From Polyangium fumosum (GTDB taxonomy: Bacteria; Myxococcota_A; Polyangia; Polyangiales; Polyangiaceae): a stretch of DNA of 64,000 nucleotides. Position numbers and translations under genes: made by a program. Below are positions 59,530 through 61,818 of the stretch, piece after piece. Within the stretch, counting starts at the first letter, position 1. Every line of letters starts with the position of its first letter. The notes under the pieces were generated by a model. That model did no database searches. It was not told the DNA's origin and saw only the letters and a list, made by a program, of their open reading frames with translations. The stretch covers positions 1 through 64,000 of the forward strand of contig NZ_SSMQ01000007.1 of assembly GCF_005144585.1 (NCBI RefSeq), in the 5' to 3' direction.

Positions 59530-61818
59530 ATGATCGCCGTGGAACGGGCGAATCGAGAGCGCGCCGAGGCCCGCATCGGCACGCTTCTGAAGGGCAAGTG
59601 GCGGCTCGATATGCTGCTCGGCGTGGGCGGCATGGCAGCCGTCTACGCGGCCACGCACCGCAACAAGAACCGCGCGGCCGTCAAAGTCCTCCACCCGGAC
59701 CTCGCCGCCGAGCCCGCGATCCGCGCCCGTTTCCACCACGAGGGGTATGCCGCGAACGCCGTCGGCCACCCCTGCGTCGTCCGGATCCTCGACGACGACG
59801 AGACCGACGATGGCCTCGCCTTCCTCGTGATGGAGCTGCTCGAAGGCGAGACCTACGACCGCATCGCCCAGCGCTGCGGCGGCAGGCTCCCCACGCCCGA
59901 GGTGCTCACGCTCGCGCTCGCCGTGCTCGACGTGCTCGTCGCCGCCCACGAAAAGCGCATCCTGCACCGCGATCTCAAGCCCGAGAACATCTTCCTCACG
60001 CAGACCGGCGCCATCAAGGTCCTCGATTTTGGCCTCGCACGCGCGCTCGAGGCCGCTGTCGAGCAAGGCCGCATCATGACGAGCTTCGGCACGACCATGG
60101 GCACGCCGGGCTTCATGCCGCCCGAGCAGGCGCGCGGCGACTGGAACGAGGTCGACGCCACGAGCGACCTGTGGGCCGTCGGCGCGACCCTGTACACGCT
60201 CCTCTCCGGCTGCCTCGTGCACGAGGCCGGCAACCTCACCGGCAGCCTGATCATGGCCGCCACGAAGCCCGTCGGCTCGCTCGCGCTCGTCGCACCCACC
60301 CTCCCCCGCGCCGTGATCGAGCTCGTCGATCGGTCCCTCCAGTTCGACAAGGCGAACCGCTTCCAGGACGCCGCCTCGATGCGCGCCGCCGTCACCGACG
60401 CGATGCAGCCCACGACACGTGTCTCGCCCGGGATCACGCCCGAAGCCCATCGCCTGCACAGCAAAGCGCTGATGGAGCCGAGGGTCGGGACGAACTCCGA
60501 GCCGGTCACCGTCGCCATCGCCGACGCGAAGCGCCCGCTGCCGCCCACGTTGCCCACGCCGCCGGACTCGGCGACGGCCCTCGCGCCTCGCGCCCCGCTG
60601 GCGCCTGAGGCCTCCCTCGGCCAGCTCACGCCCTCGCGTGGCACGAGCGGCCCCCTCTCGCCCGCCGTGCGCCCCCCGGCCGCGCAGCGCCCCACGCCGC
60701 CCCAGCAGACCGATCGGCCCGAGGTGGTCTCGCCCATCGAGATCGCGAAGGACACGTTCTGGGTCGGCAAACGCGACCCGAAGAGCATCTTCCACGCGAA
60801 CCCCTACCTGCGCATCTTCCGCCCGAAGCCCGGCTTCGAACAGGCAGGCCCGTTCCACCTGCTCGTCGACCCCGGATCGAGCTCCGACTTCGCCGTCGTC
60901 TCGGCCAAGATCGGCACGCTCATCGGCGGGATGAACAAGCTCTCCGCGTTGTTCATCAACCACCAGGATCCGGACGTCGGATCGAGCGCCGCGGTGATCT
61001 CGGCCCGTTACGCGCCCGGCGCCTCGATCGTCTGCTCCGAGGCGACGTGGCGCCTCATCGTGCACTTCAACCTGCCGCCCGAGCGTTACGTCGACACGGC
61101 CCGTTTTCCCCGCGGCTTCGACGTGCCCACGGGCCACATGATGCTCCCCGTCCCGAGCCCGTTCTGCCACTTCCGCGGCGCCGTGATGCTCTACGATCCG
61201 GAGACGCGCGTGCTCTTCACGGGAGATCTCTTCGGCGGGCTCACGCCGATCGAGGCGCGCGGGCTCTGGGCCGACGAGAGCGATTGGGCCGGCATCCGCG
61301 CCTTCCACCAGACGTACATGCCGACGAACCGCGTCCTCACCCGCGCGATGGACACCATCCGCGCCCTCGATCCGCCCGTCGAGATCATCGCCCCGCAGCA
61401 CGGCCGCCTGCTGCGCGGTCCGCTGCTCCACCGCTACATCGAGCGCCTCGCGCGCCTGCCCGTCGGCCTCGACATCCTCGACGACGTCGCCGACGAGGAG
61501 ACGATCACGGCCTGGAACAGCGTGCTCCGCCGCGTCGTCCGCACGGCCCGCATGGTGCTCGGACCCGAGGCCGACGAGCTGCTCCAGCAGCACGAGGACC
61601 TGCGCGACGCGCTGCAAGTCAGCGGCGACCAGGTGCGCCTCTCGTCGCTCGGACGCTGGACCCTCAGCGCCGTCGTCGAGGCCCTCACGGTCGGACAAAC
61701 CCCCACGATCGCGAACCCGATCAAGCTCGAAGCGGTCCTCGCCTGTGAAGAGCTCGAGCTGCCCTCGCCCGACATCCGCATCGAGGACGCCGAGTCGTCG
61801 GAGCACGTCGGCGCCTGA
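59530..61818 (+). CDS. Ser/Thr protein kinase fused to ODP/flavodiiron-like metallo-beta-lactamase domain
   Basis: 762 residues, cytoplasmic. The kinase (about 15-290) has GVGGMAAVYAATH, AVKVLHPDL (Lys52), ILHRDLKPENIFL (Asp148) and DFGLA (Asp166). A Pro-rich linker follows. Residues about 405-760 match the oxygen-binding di-iron (ODP)/flavodiiron metallo-beta-lactamase fold: DTFWVGKRDPKSIFHANPYL, LLVDPGSSSDFAVV, NHQDPDVGSS (His478, Asp480, Asp482), CHFRG (His547), FTGDLFGG (Asp566) and IAPQHG (His624). All six ligand positions of flavodiiron proteins are filled, with Asp for Glu at one. No flavodoxin domain. The likely role is a kinase whose activity responds to O2 or NO. Confidence 0.88.
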   Translation: MIAVERANRERAEARIGTLLKGKWRLDMLLGVGGMAAVYAATHRNKNRAAVKVLHPDLAAEPAIRARFHHEGYAANAVGHPCVVRILDDDETDDGLAFLVMELLEGETYDRIAQRCGGRLPTPEVLTLALAVLDVLVAAHEKRILHRDLKPENIFLTQTGAIKVLDFGLARALEAAVEQGRIMTSFGTTMGTPGFMPPEQARGDWNEVDATSDLWAVGATLYTLLSGCLVHEAGNLTGSLIMAATKPVGSLALVAPTLPRAVIELVDRSLQFDKANRFQDAASMRAAVTDAMQPTTRVSPGITPEAHRLHSKALMEPRVGTNSEPVTVAIADAKRPLPPTLPTPPDSATALAPRAPLAPEASLGQLTPSRGTSGPLSPAVRPPAAQRPTPPQQTDRPEVVSPIEIAKDTFWVGKRDPKSIFHANPYLRIFRPKPGFEQAGPFHLLVDPGSSSDFAVVSAKIGTLIGGMNKLSALFINHQDPDVGSSAAVISARYAPGASIVCSEATWRLIVHFNLPPERYVDTARFPRGFDVPTGHMMLPVPSPFCHFRGAVMLYDPETRVLFTGDLFGGLTPIEARGLWADESDWAGIRAFHQTYMPTNRVLTRAMDTIRALDPPVEIIAPQHGRLLRGPLLHRYIERLARLPVGLDILDDVADEETITAWNSVLRRVVRTARMVLGPEADELLQQHEDLRDALQVSGDQVRLSSLGRWTLSAVVEALTVGQTPTIANPIKLEAVLACEELELPSPDIRIEDAESSEHVGA

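Follow-up and report, generated by a model that had tools for sequence, protein, structure and literature searches.

Polyangium, a predatory soil bacterium, carries a gene in which a Hanks-type Ser/Thr kinase domain is joined to a predicted di-iron domain of the ODP type, and the pairing of these two modules recurs in several bacterial lineages, either within one ORF or as two neighbouring genes. The gene studied here lies in the window, the first 64,000 nucleotides of contig NZ_SSMQ01000007.1 of Polyangium fumosum, and its features are collected in Table 1. By analogy with characterized ODPs, we consider it fairly probable that its product is a soluble protein that senses a gas or iron on its own and without haem, the state of its ODP domain controlling the kinase. 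The gene thus probably lets these bacteria answer changing oxygen or iron levels by phosphorylating proteins. ODPs have been reported as oxygen and iron sensors recruited to several signalling pathways (PMC7319448; PMC6978683; PMC7666581). In T. denticola, chemotaxis relies on the ODP for sensing O2 (PMC7666581); this ODP binds iron and O2, and its contact with the receptor depends on conformation (PMC6978683).

Table 1. Features of the kinase–ODP gene, with positions in the window
Feature	Position	Strand	Evidence or remark
Kinase–ODP fusion gene, 762 aa, ATG start	59530..61818	+	One ORF in 6 Polyangium genomes
Hanks-type Ser/Thr kinase domain, residues 27–279 (K52, HRD Asp148, DFG Asp166)	59608..60366	+	Pfam PF00069, E 4e-36; high pLDDT
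Pro-rich disordered linker, residues ~296–397	60415..60720	+	pLDDT <50; dN/dS 0.4–1.0
ODP-type metallo-beta-lactamase-fold di-iron domain (predicted), residues ~401–650	60730..61479	+	PF19583, PDB matches, dN/dS
Putative metal motif H478-Q-D480-P-D482	60961..60975	+	H, D, D invariant, 82/82
Putative metal ligand H547	61168..61170	+	82/82
Putative metal ligand D566, bridging Asp of the fold	61225..61227	+	82/82
Q623-H624, ODP-type Gln followed by putative His ligand	61396..61401	+	H 82/82, Q 81/82
C-terminal extension, residues ~651–745	61480..61764	+	No Pfam match; also in stand-alone ODPs of the same clade

Because the fusion is a single ORF in all six Polyangium genomes examined (one of which has two contigs with the ORF) and its ODP part is under purifying selection, we regard it as genuine, and an assembly or frame artefact or a chance ORF can be ruled out. 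Besides the kinase, the Pfam scan of the whole protein recovered the ODP family beta lactamase PF19583 at residues 443–625, with an E-value of 3.4e-45 and a score of 154.8 bits against a curated cut-off of 27.2. Among Polyangium orthologues, the ODP domain is the most constrained part (dN/dS 0.04–0.09), the C-terminal extension (0.07–0.21) and the kinase (0.24–0.40) have higher ratios, and the linker is near neutral. The full-length model is confident for the kinase and for the ODP domain, with the residues between them disordered, and shows no confident contact between the two (pTM 0.46). The preliminary description of this DNA had treated residues 405–760 as one module; their ODP identity stands, but the region divides into an ODP core and a C-terminal extension. 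The extension gave no family match in the Pfam scan and is folded in the predicted model of residues 401–762 (alpha-alpha-beta-beta-alpha-alpha, modelled only together with the ODP domain), and it is common to the fusion and to stand-alone ODPs of the same clade.

Judged from its sequence, the Hanks-type kinase domain is intact. Its motif set, which had already been called complete, comprises K52, the alpha-C Glu, HRD (Asp148), Asn and DFG (Asp166); in the alignment the catalytic residues are invariant across the 28 fused sequences, and the Lys, Glu, Asp, Asn and DFG Asp are kept in every fused and every adjacent kinase. In NCBIfam the kinase part comes closest to PknB-type kinases, although membership in the Stk1/PknB PASTA kinases (NF033483) failed, with 218 bits against a cut-off of 450, a match confined to the kinase part and no PASTA domain. 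The fusion therefore resembles PknB-type Hanks kinases in its complete kinase domain and differs from them in lacking PASTA and in its likely sensor, which would be intracellular and metal-based. Mycobacterial PknG is also a soluble Ser/Thr kinase, one with an iron-binding rubredoxin-like domain and redox control, but its iron domain and the placement of that domain differ from those of the fusion. Within the wider set of fused kinases, HRD reads HCD in L016–L018 and their copies L081, L082 and L097, making them non-RD kinases, which suggests control without activation-loop phosphorylation.

The C-terminal module is of the ODP type and not a generic flavodiiron domain, as indicated by HMM, PDB sequence, fold, ligands and specific residues. 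The closest PDB sequences are the ODPs of T. maritima (1.8e-22) and T. denticola (4e-22), with flavodiiron proteins at 7.6e-8 or weaker, and a profile search of the PDB likewise ranks ODPs ahead of flavodiiron proteins. An AlphaFold2 model of residues 401–762, built from 82 sequences with a mean pLDDT of 90.8, adopts the metallo-beta-lactamase (MBL) fold, and its best PDB matches are 6qwo (T. maritima ODP; Z 31.2, 2.5 Å) and 6r9n (T. denticola ODP in the peroxy di-iron form; Z 30.0, 1.9 Å), with flavodiiron cores close behind (Z 26–30). The six ligand positions named in the preliminary description proved exact, and the cluster is kept in homologues: His478, Asp480, Asp482, His547, Asp566 and His624 are invariant in all 82 aligned sequences. 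Its remark that the second ligand had departed from Glu to Asp does not hold, since ODPs typically carry HxDPD and Asp480 is the family norm. The absence of a flavodoxin domain, for which the Pfam scan of the 762-residue protein gave no match, agrees with that description.

Compared with the flavodiiron proteins (FDPs) ROO, FprA and NorV, with which it has an MBL-fold di-iron domain in common (predicted in the fusion), the Polyangium protein lacks flavodoxin, has weaker E-values to them and is ODP-like at all three discriminating positions, namely Asp480 for Glu at the second ligand, Val483 for the His after the third and Gln623 for the Ser before the last His (the latter two each in 81 of the 82 sequences). 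A plain flavodiiron protein was rejected on these residues, the missing flavodoxin and the sequence and fold rankings. T. maritima ODP is reported to lack the third His of motif 2 and to use a Gln of motif 5 in its place (PMC7785958); in our reading Gln623 is that residue, and Val483 and Gln623 would together fit T. maritima ODP. The solved ODPs (T. denticola TDE2498, PDB 6qnm/6r9n; T. maritima, PDB 6qrq/6qwo) have in common with the fusion the Pfam family, the fold (Z 31 and 30), the six ligands, HxDPD followed by Val, QHG and the lack of flavodoxin. They are, however, stand-alone proteins that act on a chemoreceptor and CheA and stop near model residue 254, whereas the Polyangium ODP is part of a Ser/Thr kinase polypeptide and adds the C-terminal extension beyond that point. 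The other PF19583 match of the host genome (C66) was rejected as a second ODP, being an MBL protein of the ordinary HxHxDH kind and neither ODP nor FDP.

These features bear on what the domain might do. Of the two ligands originally proposed, O2 and NO, the latter is the weaker candidate, and an NO sensor, in which the di-iron site would bind NO in the manner of flavodiiron NO reductases and so gate the kinase, is highly improbable: fold and site are indeed common to those reductases, but the sequence, the fold ranking and Asp480, Val483 and Gln623 are those of O2-binding ODPs, not of FDPs. An enzymatic role for the domain, as a hydrolase, a phosphodiesterase or an O2 reductase that became attached to the kinase by accident or acts locally beside it, also seems quite unlikely to us. 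Hydrolases make up most of the MBL superfamily, and MBL hydrolases and the thioesterase PqsE do appear lower in the fold list; yet the motif HxHxDH of Zn-dependent MBL hydrolases is absent (the protein reads HQDPDV), the ligands are carboxylate-rich with V483 replacing the third His, flavodoxin is missing, stand-alone sensor ODPs top the fold ranking, and signalling outputs have been coupled to ODP repeatedly. A sensor is favoured over a reductase because no electron-donor domain is fused.

For the proposed kinase-controlling sensor, we infer from characterized ODPs that O2 (or Fe/NO) may gate the kinase; iron loading, O2 as the signal and the direction of control are likewise proposals. As T. 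denticola ODP does, the domain would load two Fe(II) and bind O2 in its diferrous form, yielding a stable diferric-peroxo adduct; without flavodoxin as an electron source, it would report occupancy and not turn over. The change of state (iron-free, diferrous or peroxo) might be relayed by domain contact, by dimerization or through the C-terminal extension to the kinase across the flexible linker, altering autophosphorylation and then Ser/Thr phosphorylation of targets, perhaps in response to declining O2 within swarms or fruiting bodies or in wet soil. The ODP domains of this clade share only 23–28% identity with characterized ODPs and may therefore bind another ligand or bind with another affinity. 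Alternatively, the main message passed to the kinase could be Fe(II) availability (apo versus loaded), O2 playing a lesser part. T. denticola ODP, whose ligands are the same, is reported by Muok 2019 to sense both Fe(II) and O2, but no gene at the fusion locus suggests iron, the neighbours being a TPR kinase, a small HTH-like protein and a peptide-type ABC transporter, and we judge this reading unlikely. Very unlikely, in our estimation, is a structural or docking role in which the metal-dependent domain would position the kinase and sense nothing: the flexible linker and the low confidence of the kinase–ODP arrangement in the model would suit it, but a redox-type ligand set kept throughout the alignment, in the part of the protein that purifying selection constrains most, exceeds the needs of a scaffold.

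The coupling of kinase and ODP extends well beyond Polyangium. Eighty loci emerged from a search of 84,980 species genomes. The fusion is present as one ORF in 21 of them. Such fusions occur in four separate lineages, mostly Myxococcota with one Acidobacteria MAG; within the order they are found, besides the genus, in further Polyangiaceae and in a divergent group that bears an N-terminal Cys-rich, zinc-ribbon-like segment. In another 21 loci, from Myxococcaceae and Archangiaceae and including M. xanthus, a stand-alone ODP gene is immediately followed by a kinase gene on the same strand, with gaps below 45 nt in all 13 of these loci that were inspected. The kinases of these two-gene units have a Pro-rich N-terminus (e.g. 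L056, ~61–2512). In the remaining loci no kinase gene was assigned in the flanking DNA examined, some of them lying at contig ends; they include close ODP relatives from the same clade, a point against the sensor–kinase reading. Viral copies were looked for and none was found. L071 has two ODP genes in succession, first a kinase–ODP fusion (4695–6863) and then a divergent ODP gene (6982–8181) that keeps all six ligands. One record labelled Comamonas sp. KCTC 72670 (L058) contains a Myxococcus-like ODP–kinase locus nested among Myxococcus sequences and is probably mislabelled or contaminated.

Phylogenetic analyses point to repeated origin. On a kinase tree that included 38 other kinases as background, the fused kinases form four clades, namely Polyangiaceae, L065/L066, L067/L068/L071/L073, and the zinc-ribbon group with the Acidobacteria MAG, and the operon kinases of the two-gene loci form a fifth. 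Forcing all fused kinases to be monophyletic cost 81.7 lnL units, and a single origin was rejected by the AU test (p-AU 0.0004). The four fused lineages reappear on the ODP tree, where unfused relatives lie between them and five changes are needed. As the background sample is small and bootstrap not fully settled, we word the result as at least two, probably four, fusions. The trees cannot separate gain from loss or kinase swapping. The host genome, of ~13 Mb and with Polyangium relatives 96–98% identical, encodes at least 150 kinase domains. Kinases being so abundant in these genomes, a lone fusion could be opportunistic; repeated coupling, in fusions and in two-gene loci, argues against this. 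That one sensor has repeatedly been paired with different kinases is our strongest argument that the ODP domain may control the kinase and that the two would form a functional sensor–kinase unit.

Across the loci compared, the neighbour genes of the fusion are conserved solely within Polyangium, and no function-explaining gene neighbourhood was found at the fusion locus. A separate kinase–TPR protein of 938 residues is encoded at positions 54687–57503 (+), 2 kb upstream. Other ODP architectures occur elsewhere. Another genome of the same family encodes an ODP–GGDEF diguanylate cyclase fusion (L024, 484–2433, minus strand; also L119), with ODP at E 3.2e-52, GGDEF at E 1.2e-41 and a weak GAF between them; it is likely an O2-gated c-di-GMP enzyme, so that the ODP sensor would also serve another output. 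Fermentibacterota-type ODPs (L088, L092, L095, L103, L106 and L108) have an N-terminal extension, HEAT-like in L106, the sole one scanned, and in L095 a CHASE2 adenylate cyclase gene lies upstream of the ODP gene. In Calditrichota (L080; also L087 and L089), the ODP gene is followed a few bases downstream by a gene for a protein of ~400 residues, which in L080 has a C-terminal V4R-like motif under the Pfam cut-off.

The preliminary description had presented the arrangement as undescribed. As summarized in a 2020 paper (PMC7319448), Muok et al. 2019 found ODPs in operons with signalling genes or fused to signalling domains, so that ODP–signalling fusions in general were already reported and at most the Ser/Thr-kinase version is new. 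We found no paper on a kinase–ODP protein in the open literature searched, a search outside which the original Muok et al. 2019 lay. Sensor and output are thus each known, while their pairing, its repeated origin and the two-gene form of M. xanthus appear to be uncharacterized. Cytoplasmic myxobacterial kinases regarded as O2 sensors, M. xanthus NmpU and Anaeromyxobacter AfGcHK, combine a haem protoglobin with a histidine kinase, whereas the Polyangium fusion combines a predicted di-iron site with a Ser/Thr kinase; the haem kinase NmpU of M. xanthus is evidence that myxobacteria respond to hypoxia (PMC11841059).

Myxobacteria have very many Ser/Thr kinases, and for most of them the input signal is not known. 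The fusion kinase carries a sensor module of known chemistry, and its input is therefore directly testable. We give roughly even chances to the broader proposal that several lineages independently built haem-free, di-iron, O2- or iron-sensing Ser/Thr kinases, or ‘ODP kinases’, whether fused or as two genes. These would be a gas-sensing eukaryote-like class without a characterized member, working alongside the globin histidine kinases when myxobacteria respond to hypoxia and possibly when they develop. If this is true, ODP would move from a role mainly in chemotaxis to Ser/Thr phosphorylation, and myxobacteria would gain a second, haem-free O2 or iron input beside NmpU, one that the two-gene ODP and kinase form in M. 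xanthus opens to genetics at once.
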